In this document: piece after piece, positions 29,456 to 64,000 of the stretch | How the letters are laid out: every line of letters starts with the position of its first letter | Position numbering within the stretch: position 1 is the stretch's first letter | Assembly: GCA_026745465.1 (NCBI GenBank) | Contig: JACYXH010000473.1 | Location: 5,514,691 to 5,578,690, forward strand | DNA length: 64,000 nt | Source of the DNA: Lota lota | Taxonomy: Eukaryota > Chordata > Actinopteri > Gadiformes > Lotidae | Reading direction: 5' to 3' | Notes under the pieces: model-generated | Databases searched by the model: none | What the model saw: the letters and a program-made list of their open reading frames with translations, nothing else | What the model was told of the DNA's origin: nothing | Position numbers and translations under genes: made by a program

Positions 29456-29524
29456 TACCTGATGTGTAGAGCAGCATTGTGTCAACCTTAGATTCCTACC
29501 GAATCACTGATTTTGTTGCTTGAA

Positions 29525-31935: not shown

Positions 31936-31957
31936 GGTGGAGTGATAATGAAGAGAT

Positions 31958-32125: not shown

Positions 32126-32379
32126 GTAAGTACCTTAGCAGTTATTTTTGCCTGGATGTTTAGTGCTTCATTAACAAACACTACATGGACTGTTATACGG
32201 AAACAGCATAAAAGTAAGTGGACATAGCTTGAAAATAAGGACAGCGTTTTTTTACTATAAGAAAATTACAAATATTACCCACTACACATAATTGTTGTTG
32301 AACATACATTAAAAAAAACATCAAAAAGTAAACATTGATCTTGAACATACTGGTAATTACCAAAGCTCTACCACAGTTA

Positions 32380-33219: not shown

Positions 33220-33339
33220 TAATATTAAAATATTTTAAGTTTGACAGTCAACTATATAGAAAAATGGTTAAAACGAAACAACTATTTTCAAAACCAGAGA
33301 AACCTTAATTTTATTCGTGGTAACGGTCCGTGTATGATA

Positions 33340-34180: not shown

Positions 34181-34288
34181 TTAAAAATCTTTTTAAAAAA
34201 AATTCAGATTTTTTATTTTTTATTAAAATATTAAATCAACTGATTACCTATTAAAACTAATTTCATTCAATCATATCATGTTTTACAG

Positions 34289-34346
34289 ATGGCTCAACAC
34301 AGCATGGCTGTGGAGAAATCCATAGCAGCCATGCTAGTTGTAATAG
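34289..34346 (+). CDS. SEA-array gene exon with start codon and signal peptide
   Basis: ATG follows directly after a TTTTACAG acceptor, so an upstream non-coding exon is likely. It encodes MAQHSMAVEKSIAAMLVVI, then GTAAGT. The hydrophobic core continues across the intron into GVIMGTLA of the next exon, with a plausible cleavage after TLA before DS. That continuity supports both the splice and secretion. Confidence 0.83.
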
Positions 34347-37300
34347 GTAAGTCAACATATTAAATACAATTTCCTCATAGTCCCTATGTATCTGCATGAT
34401 TTGTATGATAAAGCGGACGGCTTTATTAATTACCGTGGGGACTTAATTTTAATGCAGATTATGTGAAAGTTTAAACCTTCTCTGAAAAGCTGAAAAGATT
34501 GTTATTCAACAACATTCAATATTCATAAAACACCACATATTCATGACAATATATATTTATTGGTGTTTGTCCATAAAGTACCAAGAAATAATCGATCTAT
34601 ATGAAAAACAGGTGTCATTATGGGTACCCTCGCTGACAGCCCATACACAATTTCAACTGGATCTACGACAACAAAAGGAATATTTAATCACACCGCAAAG
34701 AATGCAGACAGTCCATCAACTCCAACCTCAGCATCGTCTTTTAAGCTGAAGGCTACAATATCAAAGCCTTTCACTGCAGAATTATCAAACCGAACAACTA
34801 CAGAATTTCAAGACCTGGCATCGAGTGTTAGGATGGTGGTAAGTTGATTTTATTGGACATCATTTTTTGATAGCCTTCCTATACATTTCATAATAAATGA
34901 TTAATTCAGCATGTTTGGCATATTTGTTGTTGTGGTTTGCTTTGTTCTGGTTAAGCTTTTTGCTTGTCTGGTCTTATGAGCAGAAACTGCTTACAGCACT
35001 ACACTTGATCATTCTTTCAACATTTAAGTTAAAAGTGATGTTAATTCAATCCAGCCATTTTGAAGGGCTATTACATGTTTTAAACTTTGGTATGGTCTAC
35101 CCATAGTGTGATGGGATCTTTCGGGAGACATATGGGCTGGTTTTCATCACCACTAATGTCCTGCGATTCAGGTAAATGGTCCATCATAAATAAAGGTAAT
35201 TGTTGATAGTGTGAATTTAAGCTGTCTTGGGATTTTTCTTATCATGCTACATTTCCAAAAATATTATTTGTTCCAATGTGCTTTGAGCTTCATCTCAAAG
35301 CACAGGGATAAAGAGGAATTGAAATTACCTAATCAATAATATTCAGCTCTAGATAACATTGGGTCAAATAATAAGTACTATTGTATGCCTTATAAGCTAA
35401 ATATTACGGGATATGTGCCCCATTTATAAGCAACAGCATGGAGCTTTCAAGTTGTATTAAGTTGAATTGTAGCGAAATGAAGGCAATCTGTTTTTCAGAC
35501 CGTCCCCCGATGGAAACACTACAATAGAGGTGGAGCTTGTATTCAGTGAGACAGCATCACCTGAAGTGATCCCTTCAGCTAGTGACGTATTGGAGACCAT
35601 GAGAATGGCTGCAGCCAACACCTCTGCTGGCGGAATCTCATTTGATCCTGAATCTATTGTTCTGACAGGTATGCTCACACTTTCCATTTTCGATCCTATG
35701 ATAAAAGTAACAGCAATGGAATATAATGCTAACAGGAAATGCCTTGTCGCTCAAGTATGTCACTTTTCCCGGATTCCTCCAGTTCGTCATCTGACTTTCA
35801 AGTTGGAGGCTACAATATCAGAGCCTTTCACCGCAGAACTATCAAACCAAACAACTGCAGAATTTCAAGAACTGTCATCGACTGTTACGATGGTGGTAAG
35901 TTGATATTTTTTAAATATATTTTAAGACTTTCACTTAGCATTTATTGCATGTCATTTTTTGATCCCCTTCATATACATTTCAAATCAATTGATTAATTCA
36001 GCATAGTTGGCAAATTTGTCATTGTTTGCTTTGTTCTGGTTAAGCTTTTTGCTTTTCTGGTCTTCTGAGCAGAAACTGCATACAGCACTACACTTGATCA
36101 TTCCAAAAACCTGTAAACAGCAGATATGGATTTCATACAGTTATAAATTGAGAAGTGTCATTTCTTTTCAACATTTAGGTTCAAAGTGATGTTAATTAAA
36201 TCCAGCCATTTTGAAGGGCTCTTAAATGTTTTAAACTTTTGCATGGTCTTCCCATAGTGTGATGGGATCTTTCGGGAGACATATGGGCTGGTTTTCATCA
36301 CCACTAATGTCCTGCAATTCAGGTAAATGGTCCATCAAAAATAAATGTCATTGTTGATAGTGTGAATTTAAGCTATCTTGGGATGTTTTTTTTTCGTGCT
36401 ACATTTCCAGAAATGTTATTTGTTCCAATGTACTTTGGGCTTTATCTCAAAGCACAAGAATAAAGCATAATTGAAATGACCTAATCATTTATATTCAGCT
36501 CTACATAACATTTGCTCAACTAATAAGTACAATTGTATGCTTTATAAGTAAAATCTTACGGGATATGTGCCCCATCTATAAGCAACAGCATGGAGCTTTC
36601 AAGTTGTATTAAGTTGAATTGTAGCGTCATGAAGGCAATCGGTTTTTCAGACCGTCCCCCGATGGAACCACTACAATAGAGGTGGAGCTTGTATTCAGTG
36701 AGACAGCATCACCTGATGGGATCCCTTCAGCTAGTGACGTATTGGAGACCATGACAATGGCTGCAGCCAACACCTCTGCTGGCGGAATCACATTTGATCC
36801 TGAATCAATTGTTGTCACAAGTATGGTCACACTTTCCATTTTCGATCCTATGATAAAAGTAACAGCAATGGAATATAATGCTAACAGCAAATGCCTTGTC
36901 GCTCAAGTATGTCACTTTTCCCTGATTCCTCCAGTTCGCCATCTGACTTTCAAGTTGGAGGCTACAATATCAGAGCCTTTCACCGCAGAACTATCAAACC
37001 AAACAACTGCAGAATTTCAAGAACTGTCATCGACTGTTACGATGGTGGTAAGTTGATCTTTTTTAAATATATTTGAAGACTTTCACTTAGCTTTTACTGC
37101 ATGTCATTTTTTGATCCCCTTCCTATACATTTCAAATCAATTGATTCAATCAGCATAGTTGGCAAATTTGTCATTGTTTCTTTGTTCTGGTTAAGCTTTT
37201 TGCTTGTCTGGTATTCTGAGCAGAAACTGCATACAGCACTACACTTGATCATTCCAAAAACCTTTACACAGCATATATTGATTTCATACAGTCATGAAAT

Positions 37301-40300
37301 GAAAAGTGTCATTTCTTTTCAACATTTAGGTTCAAAGTGATGTTAATTAAATCCAGCCGATTTGAATGGCTTTTAAATGTTTTAAACTTTTGCATGGTCT
37401 TCCCATAGTGTGATGGGATCTTTCGGGAGACATATGGGCTGGTTTTCATCACCACTAATGTCCTGCAATTCAGGTAAATGGTCCTTCATAAATAAAGGTC
37501 ATTGTTGATAGTGTGAATTTAAGCTATCTTGAGATGTTTTTTTTAATGCTACATTTCCAAAAATGTTATTTGTTCCAATGTACTTTGGGCTTTATCTCAA
37601 AGCACAAGGATAAAGCATAATTGAAATGACCTAATCATTTATATTCAGCTCTACATAACATTGGCTCAAATAATAAGTACTATTGTATGCTTTATAAGCT
37701 AAATCTTACGGGATATGTGCCCCATCTATAAGCAACAGCACGGAGCTCTCAAGTTGTATTAAGTTGAATTGTAGCATCAAAAAGGCAATCTGTTTTTCAG
37801 ACCGTCCCCCGATGGAATCACTACAATAGAGGTGGAGCTTGTATTCAATGAGACAGCATCACCTGAAGTGATCCCTTCAGCTAGTGACGTATTGGAGACC
37901 ATGAGAATGGCTGCAGCCAACACCTCTGCTGGCGGAATCTCATTTGACCCTGAATCAATTGTTGTGACAGGTATGCTCACACTTTCCATTTTCGATCCTA
38001 TGATAAAAGTAAAAGCAATGGAATATCATGCTAACAACAAATGCCTTGTTGCTCAAGTATGTCGCTTTTCCAGGATTCCTGCCATATGTACATATAAATA
38101 TATAGTTACAAGTAACATGTTCCTTCTTAGAAACGCCAAAGACAACAACAACAACAACGACTACAACTCCAACATCCCCAGTTCGTCCTCTGACTTTCAA
38201 GTTGGAGGCTACAATATCAGAGCCTTTCACCGCAGAACTATCAAACCAAAAAACTGCAGAATTCCACAAATTGGCATCGACTGTTAGGATGGTGGTAAGT
38301 TGATATTTTTTTCATATTTTAAGACTTTCACTTAGCTTTTATTGCATGCCATTCTTCGATACCCTTCCTATACATTTCATATTAATTGATTCGTTCACCA
38401 CGTTTGGCAAATTTGTCGTTGTTTGATTTGTTCTGGTTAAGCTTTCTGCTTGTCTGGTCTTATGAGCAGAAACTGCATACAGCACAACACTTGATTATTC
38501 CAAAAACCTGCAGACAGCATATATCGATTTCATACAGTCATGAATTGAGATGTGTCATTTTTTTCCAACACTTAGGTTAAAAGTGATGTTAATTCAATCC
38601 AGCCATTTAAAAGGGCTTTTACATGTTCTAATATTTTGTATGGTCTTCCCCTAGTGTGATGGGATCTTTCGGGAGACATATGGGCTGGTTTTCATCACCA
38701 CTAATGTCCTGCAATTCAGGTAAATGGTCCTTCATAAATAAAGGTCATTGTTGATAGTGTGTTTTTAAGCTGTCTTGGGTGCTTCAACTCAAAGCACAGG
38801 GATAAAGACTAATTGAAATTACCTAAACAATAATATTCAGCTCTAGATAACATTGGGTCAAAGAGTAAGTACTATTGTATGCCTTGTAAGCTAAATATTA
38901 CGGGATATGTGCCCCATCTATAAGCAACAGCATGGAGCTTTCAAGTTGTATTAAGTTGAATTGTAGCGTCATGAAGGCAATCTGTTTTTCAGACCGTCAA
39001 ACGATGGAACCACTACAATAGAGGTGGAGCTTGTATTCAGTGAGACAGCATCACCTGATGGGATCCCTTCAGCTAGTGACGTATTGGAGACCATGAGAAT
39101 GGCTGCAGCCAACACCTCTGCTGGCGCAATCACATTTGATCCTGAATCTATTGTTGTGACAGGTATGCTCACACTTTCCATTTTCGATCCTATGATAAAA
39201 GTAACAGCCATGGAATATAACGCTAACACGAAATGCCTTGTCGCTCAAGTATATCACTTTTCCCGGGTTCCTCCAGTTCGTCATCTGACTTTCAAGTTGG
39301 AGGCTACAATATCAGAGCCTTTCACCGCAGAACTATCAAACCAAACAACTGAAGAATTTCAAGAACTGTCATCGACTGTTACGATGGTGGTAAGTTGATC
39401 TTTTTTAAATATATTTGAAGACTTTCACTTAGCTTTTACTGCATGTCATTTTTTGATCCCCTTCCTATACATTTCAAATCAATTGATTCAATCAGCATAG
39501 TTGGCAAATTTGTCATTGTTTCTTTGTTCTGGTTAAGCTTTTTGCTTGTCTGGTATTCTGAGCAGAAACTGCATACAGCACTACACTTGATCATTCCAAA
39601 AACCTGTACACAGCAGATATGGATTTCATACAGTTATAAATTGAGAAGTGTCATTTATTTTCAACATTTAGGTTCAAAGTGATGTTAATTAAATCCAGCC
39701 ATTTTGAAGGGCTCTTAAATGTTTTAAACTTTTGCATGGTCTTCCCATAGTGTGATGGGATCTTTCGGGAGACATATGGGCTGGTTTTCATCACCACTAA
39801 TGTCCTGCAATTCAGGTAAATGGTCCATCAAAAATAAATGTCATTGTTGATAGTGTGAATTTAAGCTATCTTGGGATTTTTTTTTCGTGCTACATTTCCA
39901 AAAATGTTATTTGTTCCAATGTACTTTGGGCTTTATCTCAAAGCACAAGGATAAAGTATAATTGAAATTACCTAATCGTTAATATTCAGCTCTACATAAC
40001 ATTGGCTCAAATAATAAGTACTATTGTATGCTTTATAAGCTAAATCTTACGGGATATGTGCCCCATCTATAAGCAACAGCACGGAGCTCTCAAGTTGTAT
40101 TAAGTTGAATTGTAGCATCACGAAGGCAATCTGTTTTTCAGACCGTCCCCCGATGGAAACACTACAATAGAGGTGGAGCTTGTATTCAATGAGACAGCAT
40201 CACCTGAAATGATCCCTTCAGCTAGTGACGTATTGGAGACCATGAGAATGGCTGCAGCCAACACCTCTGCTGGCGGAATCTCATTTGACCCTGAATCAAT

Positions 40301-43300
40301 TGTTGTGACAGGTATGCTCACAATTTCCATTTTCGATCCTATGATAAAAGTAACAGCAATGGAATATCATGCTAACAACAAATGCCTTGTTGCTCAAGTA
40401 TGTCGCTTTTCCAGGATTCCTGCCATATGTACATATAAATATATAGTTACAAGTAACATGTTCCTTCTTAGAAACGCCAAAGACAACAACAACAACAACA
40501 ACGACTACAACTCCAACATCCCCAGTTCGTCCTCTGACTTTCAAGTTGGAGGCTACAATATCAGAGCCTTTCACCGCAGAACTATCAAACCAAAAAACTG
40601 CAGAATTCCACAAATTGGCATCGACTGTTAGGATGGTGGTAAGTTGATATTTTTTTCATATTTTAAGACTTTCACTTAGCTTTTATTGCATGCCACTCTT
40701 CGATACCCTTCCTATACATTTCATATTAATTGATTCGTTCACCACGTTTGGCAAATTTGTCGTTGTTTGATTTGTTCTGGTTAAGCTTTTTGCTTGTCTG
40801 GTCTTATGAGCAGAAACTGCATACAGCACAACACTTGATTATTCCAAAAACCTGCAGACAGCATATATCGATTTCATACAGTCATGAATTGAGATGTGTC
40901 ATTTTTTTCCAACACTTAGGTTAAAAGTGATGTTAATTCAATCCAGCCATTTAAAAGGGCTTTTACATGTTCTAATATTTTGTATGGTCTTCCCCTAGTG
41001 TGATGGGATCTTTCGGGAGACATATGGGCTGGTTTTCATCACCACTAATGTCCTGCAATTCAGGTAAATGGTCCTTCATAAATAAAGGTCATTGTTGATA
41101 GTGTGTTTTTAAGCTGTCTTGGGTGCTTCAACTCAAAGCACAGGGATAAAGACTAATTGAAATTACCTAAACAATAATATTCAGCTCTAGATAACATTGG
41201 GTCAAAGAGTAAGTACTATTGTATGCCTTGTAAGCTAAATATTACGGGATATGTGCCCCATCTATAAGCAACAGCATGGAGCTTTCAAGTTGTATTAAGT
41301 TGAATTGTAGCGTCATGAAGGCAATCTGTTTTTCAGACCGTCAAACGATGGAACCACTACAATAGAGGTGGAGCTTGTATTCAGTGAGACAGCATCACCT
41401 GATGGGATCCCTTCAGCTAGTGACGTATTGGAGACCATGAGAATGGCTGCAGCCAACACCTCTGCTGGCGCAATCACATTTGATCCTGAATCTATTGTTG
41501 TGACAGGTATGCTCACACTTTCCATTTTCGATCCTATGATAAAAGTAACAGCCATGGAATATAACGCTAACACGAAATGCCTTGTCGCTCAAGTATATCA
41601 CTTTTCCCGGGTTCCTCCAGTTCGTCATCTGACTTTCAAGTTGGAGGCTACAATATCAGAGCCTTTCACCGCAGAACTATCAAACCAAACAACTGAAGAA
41701 TTTCAAGAACTGTCATCGACTGTTACGATGGTGGTAAGTTGATATTTTTTAATATATTTTAAGACTTTCACTTAGCATTTATTGCATGTCATTTTTTGAT
41801 CCCCTTCATATACATTTCAAATCAATTGATTAATTCAGCATAGTTGGCAAATTTGTCATTGTTTGCTTTGTTCTGGTTAAGCTTTTTGCTTTTCCTGTCT
41901 TCTGAGCAGAAACTGCATACAGCACTACACTTGATCATTCCAAAAACCTGTACACAGCAGATATGGATTTCATACAGTTATAAATTGAGAAGTGTCATTT
42001 CTTTTCAACATTTAGGTTCAAAGTGATGTTAATTAAATCCAGCCATTTTGAAGGGCTCTTAAATGTTTTAAACTTTTGCATGGTCTTCCCATAGTGTGAT
42101 GGGATCTTTCGGGAGACATATGGGCTGGTTTTCATCACCACTAATGTCCTGCAATTCAGGTAAATGGTCCATCAAAAATAAATGTCATTGTTGATAGTGT
42201 GAATTTAAGCTATCTTGGGATTTTTTTTTCGTGCTACATTTCCAAAAATGTTATTTGTTCCAATGTACTTTGGGCTTTATCTCAAAGCACAAGGATAAAG
42301 TATAATTGAAATTACCTAATCGTTAATATTCAGCTCTACATAACATTGGCTCAAATAATAAGTACTATTGTATGCTTTATAAGCTAAATCTTACGGGATA
42401 TGTGCCCCATCTATAAGCAACAGCACGGAGCTCTCAAGTTGTATTAAGTTGAATTGTAGCATCACGAAGGCAATCTGTTTTTCAGACCGTCCCCCGATGG
42501 AAACACTACAATAGAGGTGGAGCTTGTATTCAATGAGACAGCATCACCTGAAATGATCCCTTCAGCTAGTGACGTATTGGAGACCATGAGAATGGCTGCA
42601 GCCAACACCTCTGCTGGCGGAATCTCATTTGACCCTGAATCAATTGTTGTGACAGGTATGCTCACACTTTCCATTTTCGATCCTATGATAAAAGTAACAG
42701 CAATGGAATATCATGCTAACAACAAATGCCTTGTTGCTCAAGTATGTCGCTTTTCCAGGATTCCTGACATATGTACATATAAATATATAGTTACAAGTAA
42801 CATGTTTCTTCTTAGAAACGCCAAAGACAACAACAACAACAACGACTACAACTCCAACATCCCCAGTTCGTCCTCTGACTTTCAAGTTGGAGGCTACAAT
42901 ATCAGAGCCTTTCACCGCAGAACTATCAAACCAAAAAACTGCAGAATTCCACAAATTGGCATCGACTGTTAGGATGGTGGTAAGTTGATATTTTTTTCAT
43001 ATTTTAAGACTTTCACTTAGCTTTTATTGCATGCCATTCTTCGATACCCTTCCTATACATTTCATATTAATTGATTCGTTCACCACGTTTGGCAAATTTG
43101 TCGTTGTTTGATTTGTTCTGGTTAAGCTTTTTGCTTGTCTGGTCTTATGAGCAGAAACGGCATCCAGCACTACACTTGATTATTCCAAAAACTTGCAGAC
43201 AGCATATATCGATTTCATACAGTCATGAATTGAGATGTGTCATTTTTTTCCAACACTTAGGTTAAAAGTGATGTTAATTCAATCCAGCCATTTAAAAGGG

Positions 43301-46300
43301 CTTTTACATGTTTTAATATTTTGCATGGTCTTCCCATAGTGTGATGGGATCTTTCGGGAGACATATGGGCTGGTTTTCATCACCACTAATGTCCTGCAAT
43401 TCAGGTAAATGGTCCGTCATAAATAAAGGTCATTGTTGATAGTGTGTTTTTAAGCTGTCTTGGGTGCTTCAACTCAAAGCACAGGGATAAAGACTAATTG
43501 AAATTACCTAAACAAAAATATTCAGCTCTAAATAACATTGGGTCAAAGAATAAGTACTATTGTATGCCTTGTAAGCTAAATATTACGGGATATGTGCCCC
43601 ATCTATAAGCAACAGCATGGAGCTTTCAAGTTGTATTAAGTTGAATTGTAGCATCATGAAGGCAATCTGTTTTTCAGACCGTCCCCCGATGGAAACACTA
43701 CAATAGAGGTGGAGCTTGTATTCAATGAGACAGCATCACCTGAAATGATCCCTTCAGCTAGTGACGTATTGGAGACCATGAGAATGGCTGCAGCCAACAC
43801 CTCTGCTGGCGGAATCACATTTGACCCTGAATCAATTGTTGTGACAGGTATGCTCACACTTTCCATTTTCGATCCTATGATAAAAGTAACAGCAATGGAA
43901 TATCATGCTAACATCAAATGCCTTGTTGCTCAAGTATGTCGCTTTTCCAGGATTCCTGACATATGTACATATAAATATATAGTTACAAGTAACATGTTCC
44001 TTCTTAGAAACGCCAAAGACAACAACAACAACAACGACTACAACTCCAACATCCCCAGTTCGTCCTCTGACTTTCAAGTTGGAGGCTACAATATCAGAGC
44101 CTTTCACCGCAGAACTATCAAACCAAAAAACTGCAGAATTCCACAAATTGGCATCGACTGTTAGGATGGTGGTAAGTTGATATTGTTTTCATATTTTAAG
44201 ACTTTCACTTAGCTTTTATTGCATGCCATTCTTCGATACCCTTCCTATACATTTCATATTAATTGATTCGTTCACCAATTTTGGGAAATTTGTCGTTGTT
44301 TGATTTGTTCTGGTTAAGCTTTTTGCTTGTCTGGTCTTATGAGCAGAAACGGCATCCAGCACTACACTTGATTATTCCAAAAACTTGCAGACAGCATATA
44401 TCGATTTCATACAGTCATGAATTGAGATGTGTCATTTTTTTCCAACACTTAGGTTAAAAGTGATGTTAATTCAATCCAGCCATTTAAAAGGGCTTTTACA
44501 TGTTTTAATATTTTGCATGGTCTTCCCATAGTGTGATGGGATCTTTCGGGAGACATATGGGCTGGTTTTCATCACCACTAATGTCCTGCAATTCAGGTAA
44601 ATGGTCCGTCATAAATAAAGGTCATTGTTGATAGTGTGAATTTAAGCTGTCTTGGGTGCTTCAACTCAAAGCACAGGGATAAAGACTAATTGAAATTACC
44701 TAAACAATAATATTCAGCTCTAGATAACATTGGGTCAAAGAATAAGTAAAATTGTATGCCTTATAAGCTAAATATTACGGGATATGTGCCCCAACTATAA
44801 GTAACAGCATGGAGCTTTCAAGTTGTATTAAGTTGAATTGTAGCGTCATGAAGGCAATCTGTTTTTCAGACCGTCAAACGATGGAACCACTACAATAGAG
44901 GTGGAGCTTGTATTCAGTGAGACAGCATCACCTGATGGGATCCCTTCAGCTAGTGACGTATTGGAGACCATGACAATGGCTGCAGCCAACACCTCTGCTG
45001 GCGGAATCACATTTGATCCTAAATCAATTGTTGTCACAAGTATGGTCACACTTTCCATTTTCGATCCTATGATAAAAGTAACAGCAATGGAATATAATGC
45101 TAACAGCAAATGCCTTGTCGCTCAAGTATGTCACTTTTCCCTGATTCCTCCAGTTCGTCATCTGACTTTCAAGTTGGAGGCTACAATATCAGAGCCTTTC
45201 ACCGCAGAACTATCAAACCAAACAACTGCAGAATTTCAAGAACTGTCATCGACTGTTACGATGGTGGTAAGTTGATCTTTTTTAAATATATTTGAAGACT
45301 TTCACTTAGCTTTTACTGCATGTCATTTTTTGATCCCCTTCCTATACATTTCAAATCAATTGATTCAATCAGCATAGTTGGCAAATTTGTCATTGTTTCT
45401 TTGTTCTGGTTAAGCTTTTTGCTTGTCTGGTATTCTGAGCAGAAACTGCATACAGCACTACACTTGATCATTCCAAAAACCTTTACACAGCATATATTGA
45501 TTTCATACAGTCATGAAATGAAAATTGTCATTTCTTTTCAACATTTAGGTTCAAAGTGATGTTAATTAAATCCAGCCGATTTGAATGGCTTTTAAATGTT
45601 TTAAACTTTTGCATGGTCTTCCCATAGTGTGATGGGATCTTTCGGGAGACATATGGGCTGGTTTTCATCACCACTAATGTCCTGCAATTCAGGTAAATGG
45701 TCCTTCATAAATAAAGGTCATTGTTGATAGTGTGAATTTAAGCTATCTTGAGATGTTTTTTTTCATGCTACATTTCCAAAAATGTTATTTGTTCCAATGT
45801 ACTTTGGGTTTTATCTCAAAGCACAAGGATAAAGCATAATTGAAATGACCTAATCATTCATATTGAGCTCTACATAACATTGGCTCAAATAATAAGTACT
45901 ATTGTATGCTTTATAAGCTAAATCTTACGGGATATGTGCCCCATCTATAAGCAACAGCACGGAGCATTCAAGTTGTATTAAGTTGAATTGTAGCATCACG
46001 AAGGCAATCTGTTTTTCAGACCGTCCCCCGATGGAAACACTACAATAGAGGTGGAGCTTGTATTCAATGAGACAGCATCACCTGAAGTGATCCCTTCAGC
46101 TAGTGACGTATTGGAGACCATGAGAATGGCTGCAGCCAACACCTCTGCTGGCGGAATCTCATTTGACCCTGAATCAATTGTTGTGACAGGTATGCTCACA
46201 CTTTCCATTTTCGATCCTATGATAAAAGTAACAGCAATGGAATATCATGCTATCAACAAATGCCTTGTTGCTCAAGTATGTCGCTTTTCCAGGATTCCTG

Positions 46301-48713: not shown

Positions 48714-48750
<37 letters not shown>

Positions 48751-53417: not shown

Positions 53418-53463
<46 letters not shown>

Positions 53464-56400
53464 CTCCAACATCCCCAGTTCGTCCTCTGACTTTCAAGTT
53501 GGAGGCTACAATATCAGAGCCTTTCACCGCAGAACTATCAAACCAAAAAACTGCAGAATTCCAAGAATTGGCATCGACTGTTAGGATGGTGGTAAGTTGA
53601 TATTTTTTTCATATTTTAAGACTTTCACTTAGCTTTTATTGCATGCCATTCTTCGATACCCTTCCTATACATTTCATATTAATTGATTCGTTCACCATGT
53701 ATGGCAAATTTTTCGTTGTTTGATTTGTTCTGGTTAAGCTTTTTGCTTGTCTGGTCTCATGAGCAGAAACTGCATACAGCACTACACTTGATTATTCCAG
53801 AAACCTGTAGACAGCATATATCGATTTCATACAGTCATGAATTGAGATGTGTCATTTTTTTCCAACACTTAGGTTAAAAGTGATGTTAATTCAATCCAGC
53901 CATTTACAAGGGCTTTTACATGTTTTAATATTTTGTATGGTCTTCCCATAGTGTGATGGGATCTTTCGGGAGACATATGGGCTGGTTTTCATCACCACTA
54001 ATGTCCTGCAATTCAGGTAAATGGTCCTTCATAAATAAAGGTCATTGTTGATTGTGTGTTTTTAAGCTGTCTTGGGTGCTTCAACTCAAAGCACAGGGAT
54101 AAAGACTAATTGAAATTACCTAAACAATAATATTCAGCTCTAGATAACATTGGGTCAAAGAATAAGTACTATTTTATATCTTATAAGTTAAATATTACGG
54201 GATATGTGCCCCATCTATAAGCAACAGCATGGAGCTTTCAAGTTGTATTAAGTTGAATTGTAGCGTCATGAAGGCAATCTGTTTTTCAGACCGTCAAACG
54301 ATGGAACCACTACGATAGAGGTGGAGCTTGTATTCAGTGAGACAGCATCACCTGATGGGATCCCTTCAGCTAGTGACGTATTGGAGACCATGAGAATGGC
54401 TGCAGCCAACACCTCTGCTGGCGCAATCACATTTGATCCTGAATCAATTGTTGTCACAAGTATGGTCACACTTTCCATTTTCGATCCTATGATAAAAGTA
54501 ACAGCAAGGGAATATAATGCTAACAGCAAATGCCTTGTCGCTCAAGTATGTCACTTTTCCCTGATTCCTCCAGTTCGTCATCTGACTTTCAAGTTGGAGG
54601 CTACAATATCAGAGCCTTTCACCGCAGAACTATCAAACCAAACAACTGCAGAATTTCAAGAACTGTCATCGACTGTTACGATGGTGGTAAGTTGATCTTT
54701 TTTAAATATATTTGAAGACTTTCACTTAGCTTTTACTGCATGTCATTTTTTGATCCCCTTCCTATACATTTCAAATCAATTGATTCAATCAGCATAGTTG
54801 GCAAATTTGTCATTGTTTCTTTGTTCTGGTTAAGCTTTTTGCTTGTCTGGTATTCTGAGCAGAAACTGCATACAGCACTACACTTGATCATTCCAAAAAC
54901 CTTTACACAGCATATATTGATTTCATACAGTCATGAAATGAAAAGTGTCATTTCTTTTCAACATTTAGGTTCAAAGTGATGTTAATTAAATCCAGCCGAT
55001 TTGAAGGGCTTTTAAATGTTTTAAACTTTTGCATGGTCTTCCCATAGTGTGATGGGATCTTTCGGGAGACATATGGGCTGGTTTTCATCACCACTAATGT
55101 CCTGCAATTCAGGTAAATGGTCCTTCATAAATAAAGGTCATTGTTGATAGTGTGAATTTAAGCTATCTTGAGATGTTTTTTTTCATGCTACATTTCCAAA
55201 AATGTTATTTGTTCCAATGTACTTTGGGTTTTATCTCAAAGCACAAGGGTAAAGCATAATTGAAATGACCTAATCATTCATATTCAGCTCTACGTAACAT
55301 TGGCTCAAATAATAAGTACTATTGTATGCTTAGAAGCTAAATCTTACGGGATACGTGCCCCACTATAAGCAACAGCACGGAGCTTTCAAGTTGTATTAAG
55401 TTGAATTGTAGCATCACGAAGGCAATCTGTTTTTCAGACCGTCCCCCGATGGAAACACTACAATAGAGGTGGAGCTTGTATTCAATGAGACAGCATCACC
55501 TGAAATGATCCCTTCAGCTAGTGACGTATTGGAGACCATGAGAACGGCTGCAGCCAACACCTCTGCTGGCGGAATCTCATTTGACCCTGAATCAATTGTT
55601 GTGACAGGTATGCTCACACTTTCCTTTTTCAATCCTATGATAAAAGTAACAGCAATGGAATATCATGCTAACAACAAATGCCTTGTTGCTCAAGTATGTC
55701 GCTTTTCCAGGATTCCTGCCATATGTACATATAAATACTGTATATAGTTACAAGTAACATGTTCCCTCTTAGAAACGCCAAAGACAACAACAACAACAAC
55801 AACAACAACGACTACAACTCCAACATCCCCAGTTCGTCCTCTGACTTTCAAGTTGGAGGCTACAATATCAGAGCCTTTCACCGCAGAACTATCAAACCAA
55901 AAAACTGCAGAATTCCAAGAATTGGCATCGACTGTTAGGATGGTGGTAAGTTGATATTTTTTTCATATTTTAAGACTTTCACTTAGCTTTTATTGCATGC
56001 CATTCTTCGATACCCTTCCTATACATTTCATATTAATTGATTCGTTCACCATGTTTGGCAGATTTGTCGTTGTTTGATTTGTTCTGGTTAAGCTTTTTGC
56101 TTGTCTGGTCTCATGAGCAGAAACTGCATACAGCACTACACTTGATTATTCCAAAAACCTGTAGACAGCATATATCGATTTCATACAGTCATGAATTGAG
56201 ATGTGTCATTTTTTTCCAACACTTAGGTTAAAAGTGATGTTAATTCAATCCAGCCATTTACAAGGGCTTTTACATGTTTTAATATTTTGTATGGTCTTCC
56301 CATAGTGTGATGGGATCTTTCGGGAGACATATGGGCTGGTTTTCATCACCACTAATGTCCTGCAATTCAGGTAAATGGTCCTTCATAAATAAAGGTCATT

Positions 56401-58095
56401 GTTGATAGTGTGAATTTAAGCTGTCTTGGGTGCTTCAACTCAAAGCACAGGGATAAAGACTAATTGAAATTACCTAAACAATAATATTCAGCTCTAGATA
56501 ACATTGGGTCAAAGAATAAGTACAATTTTATGCCTTATAAGCTAAATATTACGGGATATGTGCCCCATCTATAAGCAACAGCATGGATCTTTCAAGTTGT
56601 ATTAAGTTGAATTGTAGCGTCATGAAGGCAATCTGTTTTTCAGACCGTCAAACGATGGAACCACTACAATAGAGGTGGAGCTTGTATTCAGTGAGACAGC
56701 ATCACCTGATGGGATCCCTTCAGCTAGTGACGTATTGGAGACCATGACAATGGCTGCAGCCAACACCTCTGCTGGCGGAATCACATTTGATCCTGAATCA
56801 ATTGTTGTCACAAGTATGGTCACACTTTCCATTTTCGATCCTATGATAAAAGTAACAGCAATGGAATAAAATGCTAACAGCAAATGCCTTGTCGCTCAAG
56901 TATGTCACTTTTCCCTGATTCCTCCAGTTCGTCATCTGACTTTCAAGTTGGAGGCTACAATATCAGAGCCTTTCACCGCAGAACTATCAAACCAAACAAC
57001 TGCAGAATTTCAAGAACTGTCATCGACTGTTACGATGGTGGTAAGTTGATCTTTTTTAAATATATTTGAAGACTTTCACTTAGCTTTTACTGCATGTCAT
57101 TTTTTGATCCCCTTCCTATACATTTCAAATCAATTGATTCAATCAGCATAGTTGGCAAATTTGTCATTGTTTCTTTGTTCTGGTTAAGCTTTTTGCTTGT
57201 CTGGTATTCTGAAAACCTTTACACAGCATATATTGATTTCATACAGTCATGAAATGAAAAGTGTCATTTCTTTTCAACATTTAGGTTCAAAGTGATGTTA
57301 ATTAAATCCAGCCGATTTGAATGGCTTTTAAATGTTTTAAACTTTTGCATGGTCTTCCCATAGTGTGATGGGATCTTTCGGGAGACATATGGGCTGGTTT
57401 TCATCACCACTAATGTCCTGCAATTCAGGTAAATGGTCCTTCATAAATTAAGGTCATTGTTGATAGTGTGAATTTAAGCTATCTTGAGATGTTTTTTTTC
57501 ATGCTACATTTTCAAAAATGTTATTTGTTCCAATGTACTTTGGGTTTTATCTCAAAGCACAAGGATAAAGCATAATTGAAATGACCTAATCATTCATATT
57601 GAGCTCTACATAACATTGGCTCAAATAATAAGTACTATTGTATGCTTTATAAGCTAAATCTTACGGGATACGTGCCCCACTATAAGCAACAGCACGGAGC
57701 ATTCAAGTTGTATTAAGTTGAATTGTAGCATCACGAAGGCAATCTGTTTTTCAGACCGTCCCCCGATGGAAACACTACAATAGAGGTGGAGCTTGTATTC
57801 AATGAGACAGCATCACCTGAAGTGATCCCTTCAGCTAGTGACGTATTGGAGACCATGAGAATGGCTGCAGCCAACACCTCTGCTGGCGGAATCTCATTTG
57901 ACCCTGAATCAATTGTTGTGACAGGTATGCTCACACTTTCCATTTTCGATCCTATGATAAAAGTAACAGCAATGGAATGTCATGCTAACAACAAATGCCT
58001 TGTTGCTCAAGTATGTCGCTTTTCCAGGATTCCTGCCATATGTACATATAAATATATAGTTACAAGTAACATGTTCCCTCTTAGAAACGCCAAAG

Positions 58096-58141
<46 letters not shown>

Positions 58142-61100
58142 CTCCAACATCCCCAGTTCGTCCTCTGACTTTCAAGTTGGAGGCTACAATATCAGAGCCT
58201 TTCACCGCAGAACTATCAAACCAAAAAACTGCAGAATTCCAAGAATTGGCATCGACTGTTAGGATGGTGGTAAGTTGATATTTTTTTCATATTTTAAGAC
58301 TTTCACTTAGCTTTTATTGCATGCCATTCTTCGATACCCTTCCTATACATTTCATATTAATTGATTCGTTCACCATGTATGGCAAATTTTTCGTTGTTTG
58401 ATTTGTTCTGGTTAAGCTTTTTGCTTGTCTGGTCTCATGAGCAGAAACTGCATACAGCACTACACTTGATTATTCCAGAAACCTGTAGACAGCATATATC
58501 AATTTCATACAGTCATGAATTGAGATGTGTCATTTTTTTCCAACACTTAGGTTAAAAGTGATGTTAATTCAATCCAGCCATTTACAAGGGCTTTTACATG
58601 TTTTAATATTTTGTATGGTCTTCCCATAGTGTGATGGGATCTTTCGGGAGACATATGGGCTGGTTTTCATCACCACTAATGTCCTGCAATTCAGGTAAAT
58701 GGTCCTTCATAAATAAAGGTCATTGTTGATAGTGTGTTTTTAAGCTGTCTTGGGTGCTTCAACTCAAAGCACAGGGATAAAGACTAATTGAAATTACCTA
58801 AACAATAATATTCAGCTCTAGATAACATTGGGTCAAAGAATAAGTACTATTTTATGCCTTATAAGTTAAATATTACGGGATATGTGCCCCATCTATAAGC
58901 AACAGCATGGAGCTTTCAAGTTGTATTAAGTTGAATTGTAGCGTCATGAAGGCAATCTGTTTTTCAGACCGTCAAACGATGGAACCACTACAATAGAGGT
59001 GGAGCTTGTATTCAGTGAGACAGCATCACCTGATGGGATCCCTTCAGCTAGTGACGTATTGGAGACCATGAGAATGGCTGCAGCCAACACCTCTGCTGGC
59101 GGAATCACATTTGATCCTGAATCAATTGTTGTCACAAGTATGGTCACACTTTCCATTTTCGATCCTATGATAAAAGTAACAGCAATGGAATATAATGCTA
59201 ACAGCAAATGCCTTGTCGCTCAAGTATGTCACTTTTCCCTGATTCCTCCAGTTCGTCATCTGACTTTCAAGTTGGAGGCTACAATATCAGAGCCTTTCAC
59301 CGCAGAACTATCAAACCAAACAACTGCAGAATTTCAAGAACTGTCATCGACTGTTACGATGGTGGTAAGTTGATCTTTTTTAAATATATTTGAAGACTTT
59401 CACTTAGCTTTTACTGCATGTCATTTTTTGATCCCCTTCCTATACATTTCAAATCAATTGATTCAATCAGCATAGTTGGCAAATTTGTCATTGTTTCTTT
59501 GTTCTGGTTAAGCTTTTTGCTTGTCTGGTATTCTGAGCAGAAACTGCATACAGCACTACACTTGATCATTCCAAAAACCTTTACACAGCATATATTGATT
59601 TCATACAGTCATGAAATGAAAAGTGTCATTTCTTTTCAACATTTAGGTTCAAAGTGATGTTAATTAAATCCAGCCGATTTGAAGGGCTTTTAAATGTTTT
59701 AAACTTTTGCATGGTCTTCCCATAGTGTGATGGGATCTTTCGGGAGACATATGGGCTGGTTTTCATCACCACTAATGTCCTGCAATTCAGGTAAATGGTC
59801 CTTCATAAATAAAGGTCATTGTTGATAGTGTGAATTTAAGCTATCTTGGGATGTTTTTTTTCATGCTACATTTCCAAAAATGTTATTTGTTCCAATGTAC
59901 TTTGGGTTTTATCTCAAAGCACAAGGGTAAAGCATAATTGAAATGACCTAATCATTCATATTCAGCTCTACATAACATTGGCTCAAATAATAAGTACTAT
60001 TGTATGCTTAGAAGCTAAATCTTACGGGATACGTGCCCCACTATAAGCAACAGCACGGAGCTTTCAAGTTGTATTAAGTTGAATTGTAGCATCACGAAGG
60101 CAATCTGTTTTTCAGACCGTCCCCCGATGGAAACACTACAATAGAGGTGGAGCTTGTATTCAATGAGACAGCATCACCTGAAATGATCCCTTCAGCTAGT
60201 GACGTATTGGAGACCATGAGAACGGCTGCAGCCAACACCTCTGCTGGCGGAATCTCATTTGACCCTGAATCAATTGTTGTGACAGGTATGCTCACACTTT
60301 CCTTTTTCAATCCTATGATAAAAGTAACAGCAATGGAATATCATGCTAACAACAAATGCCTTGTTGCTCAAGTATGTCGCTTTTCCAGGATTCCTGCCAT
60401 ATGTACATATAAATACTGTATATAGTTACAAGTAACATGTTCCCTCTTAGAAACGCCAAAGACAACAACAACAACAACAACAACAACGACTACAACTCCA
60501 ACATCCCCAGTTCGTCCTCTGACTTTCAAGTTGGAGGCTACAATATCAGAGCCTTTCACCGCAGAACTATCAAACCAAAAAACTGCAGAATTCCAAGAAT
60601 TGGCATCGACTGTTAGGATGGTGGTAAGTTGATATTTTTTTCATATTTTAAGACTTTCACTTAGCTTTTATTGCATGCCATTCTTCGATACCCTTCCTAT
60701 ACATTTCATATTAATTGATTCGTTCACCATGTTTGGCAGATTTGTCGTTGTTTGATTTGTTCTGGTTAAGCTTTTTGCTTGTCTGGTCTCATGAGCAGAA
60801 ACGGCGTACAGCACTACACTTGATTATTCCAAAAACCTGTAGACAGCATATATCGATTTCATACAGTCATGAATTGAGATGTGTCATTTTTTTCCAACAC
60901 TTAGGTTAAAAGTGATGTTAATTCAATCCAGCCATTTACAAGGGCTTTTACATGTTTTAATATTTTGTATGGTCTTCCCATAGTGTGATGGGATCTTTCG
61001 GGAGACATATGGGCTGGTTTTCATCACCACTAATGTCCTGCAATTCAGGTAAATGGTCCTTCATAAATAAAGGTCATTGTTGATAGTGTGAATTTAAGCT

Positions 61101-62773
61101 GTCTTGGGTGCTTCAACTCAAAGCACAGGGATAAAGACTAATTGAAATTACCTAAACAATAATATTCAGCTCTAGATAACATTGGGTCAAAGAATAAGTA
61201 CAATTTTATGCCTTATAAGCTAAATATTACGGGATATGTGCCCCATCTATAAGCAACAGCATGGATCTTTCAAGTTGTATTAAGTTGAATTGTAGCGTCA
61301 TGAAGGCAATCTGTTTTTCAGACCGTCAAACGATGGAACCACTACAATAGAGGTGGAGCTTGTATTCAGTGAGACAGCATCACCTGATGGGATCCCTTCA
61401 GCTAGTGACGTATTGGAGACCATGACAATGGCTGCAGCCAACACCTCTGCTGGCGGAATCACATTTGATCCTGAATCAATTGTTGTCACAAGTATGGTCA
61501 CACTTTCCATTTTCGATCCTATGATAAAAGTAACAGCAATGGAATATAATGCTAACAGCAAATGCCTTGTCGCTCAAGTATGTCACTTTTCCCTGATTCC
61601 TCCAGTTCGTCATCTGACTTTCAAGTTGGAGGCTACAATATCAGAGCCTTTCACCGCAGAACTATCAAACCAAACAACTGCAGAATTTCAAGAACTGTCA
61701 TCGACTGTTACGATGGTGGTAAGTTGATCTTTTTTAAATATATTTGAAGACTTTCACTAGCTTTTACTGCATGTCATTTTTTGATCCCCTTCCTATACAT
61801 TTCAAATCAATTGATTCAATCAGCATAGTTGGCAAATTTGTCATTGTTTCTTTGTTCTGGTTAAGCTTTTTGCTTGTCTGGTATTCTGAAAACCTTTACA
61901 CAGCATATATTGATTTCATACAGTCATGAAATGAAAAGTGTCATTTCTTTTCAACATTTAGGTTCAAAGTGATGTTAATTAAATCCAGCCGATTTGAATG
62001 GCTTTTAAATGTTTTAAACTTTTGCATGGTCTTCCCATAGTGTGATGGGATCTTTCGGGAGACATATGGGCTGGTTTTCATCACCACTAATGTCCTGCAA
62101 TTCAGGTAAATGGTCCTTCATAAATAAAGGTCATTGTTGATAGTGTGAATTTAAGCTATCTTGAGATGTTTTTTTTCATGCTACATTTTCAAAAATGTTA
62201 TTTGTTCCAATGTACTTTGGGTTTTATCTCAAAGCACAAGGATAAAGCATAATTGAAATGACCTAATCATTCATATTTGAGCTCTACATAACATTGGCTC
62301 AAATAATAAGTACTATTGTATGCTTTATAAGCTAAATCTTACGGGATACGTGCCCCACTATAAGCAACAGCACGGAGCATTCAAGTTGTATTAAGTTGAA
62401 TTGTAGCATCACGAAGGCAATCTGTTTTTCAGACCGTCCCCCGATGGAAACACTACAATAGAGGTGGAGCTTGTATTCAATGAGACAGCATCACCTGAAG
62501 TGATCCCTTCAGCTAGTGACGTATTGGAGACCATGAGAATGGCTGCAGCCAACACCTCTGCTGGCGGAATCTCATTTGACCCTGAATCAATTGTTGTGAC
62601 AGGTATGCTCACACTTTCCTTTTTCGATCCTATGATAAAAGTAACAGCAATGGAATATCATGCCAACAACAAATGCCTTGTTGCTCAAGTATGTCGCTTT
62701 TCCAGGATTCCTGCCATATGTACATATAAATATATAGTTACAAGTAACATGTTCCCTCTTAGAAACGCCAAAG

Positions 62774-62807
<34 letters not shown>

Positions 62808-64000
62808 CGACTACAACTCCAACATCCCCAGTTCGTCCTCTGACTTTCAAGTTGGAGGCTACAATATCAGAGCCTTTCACCGCAGAACTATCAAACCAAA
62901 AAACTGCAGAATTCCAAGAATTGGCATCGACTGTTAGGATGGTGGTAAGTTGATATTTTTTTCATATTTTAAGACTTTCACTTAGCTTTTATTGCATGCC
63001 ATTCTTCGATACTCTTCCTATACCTTTCATATTAATTGATTCGTTCACCATGTATGGCAAATTTTTCGTTGTTTGATTTGTTCTGGTTAAGCTTTTTGCT
63101 TGTCTGGTCTCATGAGCAGAAACTGCATACAGCACTACACTTGATTATTCCAGAAACCTGTAGACAGCATATATCGATTTCATACAGTCATGAATTGAGA
63201 TGTGTCCTTTTTTTCCAACACTTAGGTTAAAAGTGATGTTAATTCAATCCAGCCATTTACAAGGGCTTTTACATGTTTTAATATTTTGTATGGTCTTCCC
63301 ATAGTGTGATGGGATCTTTCGGGAGACATATGGGCTGGTTTTCATCACCACTAATGTCCTGCAATTCAGGTAAATGGTCCTTCATAAATAAAGGTCATTG
63401 TTGATAGTGTGAATTTAAGCTGTCTTGGGTGCTTCAACTCAAAGCACAGGGATAAAGACTAATTGAAATTACCTAAACAATAATATTCAGCTCTAGATAA
63501 CATTGGGTCAAAGAATAAGTACTATTTTATGCCTTATAAGTTAAATATTACGGGATATGTGCCCCATCTATAAGCAACAGCATGGAGCTTTCAAGTTGTA
63601 TTAAGTTGAATTGTAGCGTCATGAAGGCAATCTGTTTTTCAGACCGTCAAACGATGGAACCACTACAATAGAGGTGGAGCTTGTATTCAGTGAGACAGCA
63701 TCACCTGATGGGATCCCTTCAGCTAGTGACGTATTGGAGACCATGAGAATGGCTGCAGCCAACACCTCTGCTGGCGGAATCACATTTGATCCTAAATCAA
63801 TTGTTGTCACAAGTATGGTCACACTTTCCATTTTCGATCCTATGATAAAAGTAACAGCAATGGAATATAATGCTAACAGCAAATGCCTTGTCGCTCAAGT
63901 ATGTCACTTTTCCCTGATTCCTCCAGTTCGTCATCTGACTTTCAAGTTGGAGGCTACAATATCAGAGCCTTTCACCGCAGAACTATCAAACCAAACAACT
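34289..64000 (+). CDS. giant mucin-like glycoprotein with at least 25 tandem SEA domains (partial at 3' end)
   Basis: A signal-peptide exon (34289-34346) joins 25 complete three-exon SEA modules and a partial 26th: 77 exons, about 3,220 codons to the window edge. Module k has exon A (SEA N-half, ending TMV or RMV), exon B (65 nt, CDGIFRETYGLVFITTNVLQF plus the split Arg) and exon C (170 nt, RPSPDGxTTIEVELVF to FDPESIVVT). A and B are followed by GTAAGT/GTAAAT donors; C donors are GTATGC or GTATGG. Each module enters and leaves in phase 1. SEA identity rests on the FR...G....VELVF core and overall length; SEA domains are typical of extracellular mucins and proteoglycans. No transmembrane segment appears before the edge. 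I do not recognise the orthologue. Tandem SEA arrays are known in MUC16, but the sequence differs. Confidence 0.87.
34612..35668 (+). CDS. SEA module 1, with N-terminal Ser/Thr-rich leader
   Basis: Exons A 34612-34838, B 35107-35171, C 35499-35668. Exon A is the longest (227 nt). It holds the end of the signal peptide and a Ser/Thr-rich spacer before FKLKATISKPFTAELSNRTT. B encodes LRF where most copies have LQF. C reads DGNTTIEV, FSETASPEVIP and SIVLT. It looks like the most divergent, founder-like copy. Confidence 0.85.
35783..36820 (+). CDS. SEA module 2 (no Thr linker)
   Basis: Exons A 35783-35895 (113 nt, SNQTT), B 36258-36322, C 36651-36820 (DGTTTIEV, FSETASPDGIP, GGITFDPES). It is a short-linker A exon combined with a type II C exon, before regular alternation begins. 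Confidence 0.87.
36935..37970 (+). CDS. SEA module 3 (type I, no Thr linker)
   Basis: Exons A 36935-37047, B 37409-37473, C 37801-37970. C reads DGITTIEV: the Asn of the usual type I DGNTT sequon is Ile here. FNETASPEVIP is kept. Confidence 0.87.
38131..39162 (+). CDS. SEA module 4 (type II, linker of 9 Thr)
   Basis: Exons A 38131-38294, B 38655-38719, C 38993-39162. A opens TPK, then nine Thr (five ACA plus ACG ACT ACA ACT), then PTSPVRPLTFKLEATIS. C reads RPSNDGTTTIEV and GAITFDPES. Confidence 0.87.
39277..40311 (+). CDS. SEA module 5 (type I, no linker)
   Basis: Exons A 39277-39389 (SNQTTEEFQEL), B 39751-39815, C 40142-40311 (DGNTTIEV, FNETASPEMIP). It carries four N-glycosylation sequons. 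Confidence 0.87.
40472..41506 (+). CDS. SEA module 6 (type II, linker of 10 Thr)
   Basis: Exons A 40472-40638, B 40999-41063, C 41337-41506. It is nearly identical to module 4, 2,344 bp upstream, with one extra ACA codon. Confidence 0.87.
41621..42655 (+). CDS. SEA module 7 (type I, no linker)
   Basis: Exons A 41621-41733, B 42095-42159, C 42486-42655. It is nearly identical to module 5 at 2,344 bp spacing. Confidence 0.87.
42816..43847 (+). CDS. SEA module 8 (hybrid: Thr linker with type I C exon)
   Basis: Exons A 42816-42979 (9 Thr, SNQKTAEFHKL), B 43340-43404, C 43678-43847 (DGNTTIEV, FNETASPEMIP, but GGITFDPES). The C exon sits only 1,192 bp after the previous type I C exon. This breaks the alternation and suggests a one-module duplication or conversion. 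Confidence 0.86.
44008..45039 (+). CDS. SEA module 9 (type II, linker of 9 Thr)
   Basis: Exons A 44008-44171, B 44532-44596, C 44870-45039. C reads FDPKSIVVT where other copies have FDPES; module 25 shares the Lys. Confidence 0.87.
45154..46189 (+). CDS. SEA module 10 (type I, no linker)
   Basis: Exons A 45154-45266, B 45628-45692, C 46020-46189 (DGNTTIEV, FNETASPEVIP). Regular alternation resumes here. Confidence 0.87.
46350..47432 (+). CDS. SEA module 11 (type II, linker of 11 Thr)
   Basis: Exons A 46350-46519, B 46880-46944, C 47263-47432. B encodes LRF, otherwise seen only in module 1. C keeps RPSPDGTTT rather than RPSNDGTTT. The A-B and B-C introns are also more divergent, so this is an older lineage within the array. 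Confidence 0.87.
47547..48542 (+). CDS. SEA module 12 (type I, no linker)
   Basis: Exons A 47547-47659, B 47983-48047, C 48373-48542. The A-B intron lacks about 38 bp near 47,831 (TATTCTGAAAACC), a deletion shared with modules 20 and 24. Confidence 0.87.
48703..49746 (+). CDS. SEA module 13 (type II, linker of 13 Thr)
   Basis: Exons A 48703-48878, B 49239-49303, C 49577-49746. The Thr tract is almost pure ACA and has lost the ACG ACT interruption. Confidence 0.87.
49861..50894 (+). CDS. SEA module 14 (type I, no linker)
   Basis: Exons A 49861-49973, B 50335-50399, C 50725-50894. C reads METMRTAAANTS (ACG), a Thr marker shared with modules 18 and 22 at four-module spacing; here the residues before it are LETMRT. 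Confidence 0.87.
51055..52098 (+). CDS. SEA module 15 (type II, linker of 13 Thr)
   Basis: Exons A 51055-51230, B 51591-51655, C 51929-52098. The linker keeps the ACG ACT interruption. C reads RPSNDGTTT. Confidence 0.87.
52213..53246 (+). CDS. SEA module 16 (type I, no linker)
   Basis: Exons A 52213-52325, B 52687-52751, C 53077-53246. Unlike modules 12, 20 and 24, its A-B intron keeps the 38-bp segment. Confidence 0.87.
53407..54459 (+). CDS. SEA module 17 (type II, linker of 16 Thr)
   Basis: Exons A 53407-53591, B 53952-54016, C 54290-54459. The tract is 15 uninterrupted ACA codons plus ACT, tied for longest in the window. C reads GAITFDPES. Confidence 0.87.
54574..55607 (+). CDS. SEA module 18 (type I, no linker)
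   Basis: Exons A 54574-54686, B 55048-55112, C 55438-55607 (FNETASPEMIP, MRTAAANTS). The following intron carries a 4-bp TATA-area insertion (AAATACTGTATATAG) shared only with module 22. Confidence 0.87.
55773..56813 (+). CDS. SEA module 19 (type II, linker of 12 Thr)
   Basis: Exons A 55773-55945, B 56306-56370, C 56644-56813. The following 114-nt intron carries an in-frame TAA near 56,867, the only such stop I found among these short introns. Confidence 0.87.
56928..57924 (+). CDS. SEA module 20 (type I, no linker)
   Basis: Exons A 56928-57040, B 57364-57428, C 57755-57924. The A-B intron has the 38-bp deletion. Confidence 0.87.
58085..59137 (+). CDS. SEA module 21 (type II, linker of 16 Thr)
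   Basis: Exons A 58085-58269, B 58630-58694, C 58968-59137. It is the four-module counterpart of module 17 (4,678 bp apart), with GGITF instead of GAITF. Confidence 0.87.
59252..60285 (+). CDS. SEA module 22 (type I, no linker)
   Basis: Exons A 59252-59364, B 59726-59790, C 60116-60285. It shares the MRTAAANTS and AAATACTGTATATAG markers with module 18, exactly 4,678 bp upstream. Confidence 0.87.
60451..61491 (+). CDS. SEA module 23 (type II, linker of 12 Thr)
   Basis: Exons A 60451-60623, B 60984-61048, C 61322-61491. It is the counterpart of module 19, without the intronic TAA. Confidence 0.87.
61606..62602 (+). CDS. SEA module 24 (type I, no linker)
   Basis: Exons A 61606-61718, B 62041-62105, C 62433-62602. 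The A-B intron has the 38-bp deletion. It opens the next four-module block. Confidence 0.87.
62763..63812 (+). CDS. SEA module 25 (type II, linker of 15 Thr)
   Basis: Exons A 62763-62944, B 63305-63369, C 63643-63812. C reads FDPKSIVVT like module 9. This is the last complete module in the window. Confidence 0.87.
63927..64000 (+). CDS. SEA module 26, start of exon A (cut by window edge)
   Basis: A CCTCCAG acceptor is followed by RHLTFKLEATISEPFTAELS and continues to the last base. The array therefore extends beyond the window, and the gene's end is not visible. Confidence 0.85.

Follow-up and report, generated by a model that had tools for sequence, protein, structure and literature searches.

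A 2014 review regards MUC16 as the only one of the mammalian mucins identified that uses SEA domains so extensively (PMC4046138). The revised human model of MUC16 counts 19 repeats with two invariant C-loop cysteines (excerpt of PMC10829539), and each repeat of about 1.9 kb was described as comprising five exons, in a protein with a potential membrane span and a cytoplasmic region (excerpt of PMC3431878). In fish, Muc13 and I-Muc of gilthead sea bream carry a SEA domain beside a membrane span and possess a cytoplasmic tail (excerpt of PMC3680472), and a 2006 survey reported only Muc13 and a MUC1-like gene as transmembrane mucins of Fugu (PMC1552070). The present analysis concerns a stretch of 64,000 nucleotides of the Lota lota genome (assembly GCA_026745465.1, 575 Mb in 867 contigs), positions 5514691–5578690 of contig JACYXH010000473.1 (C473), referred to below as the window. 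It holds the 5′ part of a gene (gene 1) with a signal peptide, a chain of SEA domains and Thr/Pro/Ser-rich linkers, and a sister gene (gene 2) lies further along the same contig. The reading favoured here, and held to be probable, is that of a giant mucin-like surface glycoprotein anchored by glycosylphosphatidylinositol (GPI), with a SEA array related to that of MUC16 (the cancer marker CA125) but expanded independently of it.

Within the window, gene 1 comprised exon 1, 25 full modules of three exons each (A, B and C) and a partial 26th A exon. These are 77 exons with 9,669 coding bases or 3,223 codons, in agreement with the initial annotation, which had put at least 25 tandem three-exon SEA modules, 77 or more exons and about 3,220 or more codons in one gene. 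The gene was followed past the window end with 80 kb of downstream C473 sequence. Module 28 ended at C473:5582046 and was followed by a run of exactly 5,000 N (C473:5582191–5587190); the exons before it, exon 1 and the 84 of the 28 modules, joined into 3,567 codons without a stop. Exon A ended in phase 0, exon B in phase 2 and exon C in phase 1 in all 28 modules of gene 1 and all 34 modules of gene 2; the joined exons were as free of stops and phase errors as had been claimed, and the modules were indeed bounded by phase-1 introns. The exons measured 113–227 nt (A), 65 nt (B) and 170 nt (C). The parts discussed below are the following:

28994–34683, plus strand: sequence before gene 1 together with its 5′ end, also present at gene 2 (aligned in six pieces totalling 4,656 bases, with a length-weighted identity of 93%)
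34289–34346, plus strand: exon 1, carrying the start codon and the greater part of the signal peptide (MAQHSMAVEKSIAAMLVVIG...), ending in phase 1, assigned from the sequence and from hydropathy in the sister protein
34612–34838, plus strand: module 1 exon A, 227 nt, with the end of the signal peptide, a Ser/Thr-rich lead-in and the start of the first SEA domain
35107–35171, plus strand: module 1 exon B, 65 nt, equal in length in all 60 array modules of both genes
35499–35668, plus strand: module 1 exon C, 170 nt, equal in length in all 60 array modules of both genes
35783–37970, plus strand: modules 2 and 3, each with a short A exon of 113 nt and no linker
38131–63812, plus strand: modules 4–25, in which a long A exon (164–185 nt, with a poly-Thr linker) mostly alternates with a short one (113 nt)
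63927–64000, plus strand: start of module 26 exon A, with the remaining 39 bases past the window end

The periodicity was also visible to a repeat finder run without the gene model, which returned a direct-repeat family (D1) of 25 copies spaced 1,110–1,243 bases apart between 35,391 and 63,834. The 32-base core of exon B was found in 25 window copies with zero mismatch in each. A 34-base exon-B pattern had 25 exact forward matches genome-wide, all of them on C473 (24 in the window and one just past its end), and no reverse-strand match genome-wide; the backwards control also gave none. The linker was missing in 14 of the 28 modules of gene 1 (those with an A exon of 113 nt) and present in the array modules of gene 2, and modules 8 and 9 of gene 1, both of the long-A type, break the alternation. 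The poly-Thr linker of the long A exons in gene 1 (from 38131) is a coding ACA-rich microsatellite with a length varying in threes. The bases directly before the ATG, TTTTACAG in gene 1 (window 34269–34288) and TTTTATAG in gene 2 (C473:5597981–5597999), resemble a splice acceptor, and both genes may therefore possess an additional non-coding exon upstream of exon 1.

The assignment of the modules to the SEA family was based on profile searches. The Pfam SEA search (PF01390) of the joined exons, suggested with the initial annotation, gave 81.9 bits (E 4.3e-23) for the first 289 codons of gene 1, covering the signal peptide and two modules, against a curated cut-off of 26.4 bits; the first match began at residue 63. 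Single domains scored 43.8 bits (a gene 1 module), 34.0 bits (a gene 2 module), 28.7 bits (module 33 of gene 2) and 37.2 bits (the last SEA domain of gene 2 with its tail). A piece with the long Ser/Thr linker and parts of two domains reached 16.0 bits with Pfam SEA, below the cut-off, and had no Pfam match above cut-off. When a profile built from eight module rows was compared with solved structures at E up to 10, six chains were matched. The top one was the mouse MUC16 SEA domain 1ivz (E 6.3e-6), followed by two transmembrane-protease SEA chains (0.0039 and 0.0057), two ADGRF1 chains (0.069 and 0.093) and an unrelated ATPase subunit (0.99). The chain 1ivz is termed a murine SEA domain in PMC10829539, and PMC4046138 cites a structure paper whose title names the SEA domain of the murine MUC16 homologue. 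The earlier description of the modules as unlike MUC16 held at the level of sequence, though the module profile had the mouse MUC16 SEA domain as its best match. Each array module contained one Cys, at the start of exon B, and module 1 of gene 2 had a second one in exon C. As gene 1 up to the N run has 28 Cys in total and gene 2 has 34, pairing across modules or molecules would be allowed. The number of Cys per SEA domain is odd in the array modules, with the exception of module 1 of gene 2, which has two.

Gene 2 began on C473 with a near-identical signal-peptide exon from 5598000 and ended with a stop at 5641098; its one start exon and one end exon are both in the assembly, and the first AATAAA lies about 125 bases past the stop. 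The joined gene had 104 exons, 14,739 nt and 4,912 codons with 34 SEA modules and a single stop, at the end. Its 32 array modules are followed by an extended Ser/Thr/Pro region that includes a diverged SEA domain (module 33) and, after another linker, by the last SEA domain (module 34). Thr made up 20%, Ser 9% and Pro 7% of the protein, clustered in linkers of about 30 residues and in one longer stretch before module 33, with no long uninterrupted Pro/Thr/Ser domain. The 3′ end of gene 1 is out of view because of the N run behind module 28. Since the sequence right behind this run matched the sequence after the gene 2 stop (96% identity over 1,605 bases), the 3′ end of gene 1 probably resembles that of gene 2.

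The end of gene 2 may thus serve as a model in which a membrane-proximal SEA domain with a G-S-I-I cleavage-like motif is followed by a predicted GPI-anchor signal. Such signals combine small residues, a brief spacer and a hydrophobic stretch that closes the protein. The last exon of gene 2 encodes VTGGGSSGMNKSSAFIISLMALLSWLLVSS, then the stop, the C-terminus of the protein being ...GGGSSGMNKSSAFIISLMALLSWLLVSS. In a hydropathy scan of the whole protein, only the N-terminus and the last 20 residues passed the limit. As a sequence pattern, gene 2 therefore matches GPI-anchored proteins, with a signal peptide, a C-terminal small-residue site, a spacer and a hydrophobic tail reaching the stop. 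The motif GS[IV][IVT] had a single occurrence in gene 2, as QGSIIN in the last SEA domain, and was absent from the 3,567 codons of gene 1. In the alignment, QGSIIN fell on GSIV of ADGRF1. Self-cleavage of the MUC1 SEA domain was described at GSVVV (excerpt of PMC4456727); GSIIN departs from this motif in its last three residues, with I replacing V at two of them and N at the end.

A search of the same genome with the gene 2 end at E up to 0.1 gave 40 matches, 38 on C473 and two on C758. The relative at C758:1406819–1409892 had a last SEA domain 52% identical to that of gene 2, with GSIIN, and the exon after it ended in ...NLLTALVLLALSWFLSRQS and a stop, a short hydrophobic tail. Ser/Thr/Gly repeats and one further (penultimate) SEA domain precede the last one, and only these two SEA domains were seen within the 30 kb examined. 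In the opposite direction, the C758 end gave five matches, four on C758 and one on C473. Because these ends are shared, the tail, the last SEA domain and the penultimate one look like a common core, from which the C473 genes would have expanded the SEA domain and the C758 gene the Ser/Thr/Gly repeats. By eye, an apparent partial second copy of the last-SEA end and tail exon was also noticed at C758:1411800–1412000. All matches of a module protein among those listed (the best 150 of 186) were on C473. The Pfam SEA search of the genome itself returned two matches (C501 and C592) and none at the C473 locus; as each SEA domain there spans three exons, this search is a poor guide to the number of SEA genes. 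With three gene 2 queries, no tblastn match in the C501 stretch fell below E 0.007. The SEA-containing stretch at C592:1029793–1030289, with the motif FRNGSIVV, apparently belongs to a further SEA gene.

In a tree of 17 SEA rows, which has several long branches and carries a long-branch-join warning, the five MUC16 rows formed one clade (98/97) without any row of this genome. The array rows grouped with module 33 and the C758 penultimate SEA domain (89/95, under the firm-support mark of the tool), and the four array rows did not form a clade of their own against these two (2 changes). The fork joining the MUC16 and array sets was weak (73/72).

The two arrays were compared module by module. 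Mean identity within gene 1 was 95.4% for exon A (last 113 nt), 99.2% for B and 95.6% for C, and within gene 2 it was 98.7%, 99.4% and 98.6%, respectively; between the genes it was 79.6%, 93.1% and 85.7%. Intron identity was 92–97% within genes and 80–83% between them, and 30 distinct module proteins were counted among the 62 modules. On these figures, homogenisation is separate in each gene. The modules of gene 1 were 91.1% identical at lag 1, 97.3% at lag 2 and 96.9% at lag 4, an even-lag likeness due to the mostly alternating poly-Thr-linker (A 164–185 nt) and linkerless (113 nt) modules, whereas gene 2 showed no two-module rhythm (98.8% and 98.9% at lags 1 and 2). Gene 1 thus looks to have been amplified largely in two-module units and gene 2 in one-module units. 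As the flanks are 93% (upstream) and 96% (downstream) identical, the arrays differ more between the genes than the flanks do. The simplest explanation would be that the ancestor had diverged modules and that after the duplication each gene amplified different ones; selection or conversion could have contributed to the divergence of the arrays. The first modules of the two genes were partly alike (exon A 95.6%, exon C 85.3%), and the turnover therefore stopped short of the array start.

The evidence that the arrays are coding lies mainly in exon lengths and in the kind of variation. In a set of 60 array modules, which leaves out the two diverged last modules of gene 2, all 180 exons had a length of 2 mod 3, with exon A varying by threes only, whereas the introns (60 A–B, 60 B–C and 58 C–A) had many lengths spread over all three mod-3 classes. 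Among 134 distinct exon variants, 43 were silent, 91 changed an amino acid and none gave a stop, compared with 33.4, 95.9 and 4.7 expected if the same changes were placed randomly. The between-gene identity of exons B (0.931) and C (0.857) exceeded that of the introns (0.797–0.830). Since exon edges were set by a search for motifs beside AG/GT, canonical splice sites were in part to be expected from the procedure, an effect of which phases and lengths are free.

Several observations weigh against the favoured reading. The mean ratio of nonsynonymous to synonymous substitution rates (dN/dS) was 0.69 between the modules of the two genes and 0.77 and 0.75 within them, and it reached 4.9 for exon B between genes (on a synonymous rate of 0.019, from few sites), 2.3 for exon A within gene 2 and 1.3 for exons B and C of the two first modules (again few sites). 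This is weak amino-acid constraint, as in fast-evolving or decaying genes. Exon A was no more alike between the genes (0.796) than the introns. For a lone module, the solved structures ranked first were two designed helical proteins (E 0.006), and 1ivz came after them (0.14). No G-S motif occurs in the array modules, the last SEA domain is a putative site of shedding, the GPI signal was judged by eye and hydropathy scan, and gene 1 was read only up to the N run, with its 3′ end beyond it.

The dN/dS values would suit a decaying, non-functional relic or a satellite-like repeat that is open by chance, and an open frame over many near-identical copies is less surprising than over unlike ones. This is nevertheless very improbable, because the array exons, and not the introns, keep to 2 mod 3, no stop was found among the 134 variants where 4.7 were expected, and gene 2 is open across 104 exons with both ends present. 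A pseudogene or satellite was accordingly rejected on the evidence of frame and length, though dN/dS was not low. Still less credible is a long row of small, separately transcribed SEA genes. The modules are self-contained and near identical, as such a row would have them, but a single signal-peptide exon precedes each array, a single tail exon stands at the end of gene 2 and each C exon joins the next A exon in phase. Start- and end-exon queries of 30 kb upstream and the extended window, with the array stretches and the gene 1 start filtered out, matched only the two ends of gene 2. Separate small genes were rejected on the one start exon per array and the in-phase C–A joins.

Another alternative is that the gene is a MUC16 (CA125) orthologue with the same inherited array. 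In its favour, the best structure for the module profile was the mouse MUC16 SEA domain, ahead of the transmembrane-protease and ADGRF1 chains, both proteins have tandem SEA domains with Ser/Thr/Pro-rich linkers, and MUC16 adjoins the array clade in the tree, if by a weak fork. Yet human MUC16 SEA chains were in the structure set and stayed outside the six matches up to E 10, and the MUC16 clade stood apart from the array rows with their own grouping of module 33 and the C758 domain. The two invariant C-loop cysteines are absent, a different single Cys being present per module, and the GPI-like end of gene 2 has no membrane span with a cytoplasmic tail, so that orthology is judged unlikely. 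A somewhat greater, though still minor, chance is given to the copy number being partly a product of assembly, with real modules collapsed or over-expanded. Module copy numbers rest on one assembly, the 5,000-N run lies inside or at the end of gene 1 and some modules are 99–100% identical; against this stand the distinct variants per module (30 distinct proteins among 62) and the ordered two-module periodicity of gene 1.

In the favoured reading, a giant GPI-anchored glycoprotein, the protein would, if expressed, form a long N- and O-glycosylated rod of the beads-on-a-string type on the epithelial surface, held there by GPI. The last SEA domain might cut itself, which would allow the rod to be shed or torn away. 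Modules could be added, removed and homogenised by unequal crossing-over or gene conversion, and as they are phase 1-1 three-exon units, gain, loss or homogenisation of copies leaves the frame intact. A wider claim, on which the arguments seem to us evenly balanced, is that a family of GPI-anchored SEA glycoproteins built CA125-like arrays independently of mammalian MUC16 and that these arrays turn over faster than the gene, each copy having exchanged the greater part of its array for other module types after a whole-gene duplication (flanks about 93–96%).

In the neighbourhood, four pieces on the minus strand (window 20995–26910) apparently belong to one TBC-domain gene, which we take to resemble TBC1D20; one piece scored 25.0 bits with RabGAP-TBC, just below the cut-off of 25.2. 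On the plus strand, an open frame at 32598–33014 had Brinker-type (33.3 bits) and Tc5-transposase (24.8 bits) DNA-binding domains above their cut-offs. It lies about 1.3 kb before exon 1, inside 32378–33220, a part missing from the upstream flank of gene 2.

No description of such a tandem-SEA GPI-type gene was found in the open-access papers searched, which argues only weakly for novelty; public databases may well contain such predicted proteins without a name. Annotation may break up or overlook giant repeat-rich genes like these. If a SEA array had arisen a second time, separately and on a different anchor, long SEA chains would prove to be a solution that can arise more than once, and the role of the array could be told apart from the roles of the membrane span and tail of MUC16. 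A lipid anchor together with a self-cutting last SEA domain would, if true, mean a giant rod released without a cytoplasmic signal. The two sister genes would also be a natural case of very fast module turnover.

Among the systems compared, the C758 relative shares the penultimate SEA domain, Ser/Thr/Gly-rich repeats, the GSIIN last SEA domain and the hydrophobic tail at the stop, and differs in having expanded the Ser/Thr/Gly region in place of the SEA domain. Mucins of the MUC1/MUC13 type resemble gene 2 in a membrane-proximal SEA domain with a G-S cleavage-type motif (GSVVV in MUC1), but they have one SEA domain and a membrane span where many SEA modules and a GPI-type tail are found here. 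With MUC16, the genes have in common tandem SEA modules joined by Ser/Thr/Pro-rich linkers (at least 28 and 34 modules here), a uniform array that becomes more variable near the membrane (R18 and R19 in human, modules 33 and 34 here) and the lack of G-S at the hairpin position of the alignment, which holds for the array and for the four human repeats included. The differences are that gene 2 ends in a GPI-type tail without a membrane span and cytoplasmic tail (the gene 1 end being out of view), that two C-loop cysteines per repeat are replaced by a single Cys at another place, that the huge Ser/Thr-rich N-terminal domain of MUC16 has no counterpart in gene 1 and that a module of 1.1–1.25 kb has three exons. 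As several features that define MUC16 are lacking, the genes were classed as working like MUC16 and not as its members, and the likeness would lie in a long chain of SEA domains on the surface.

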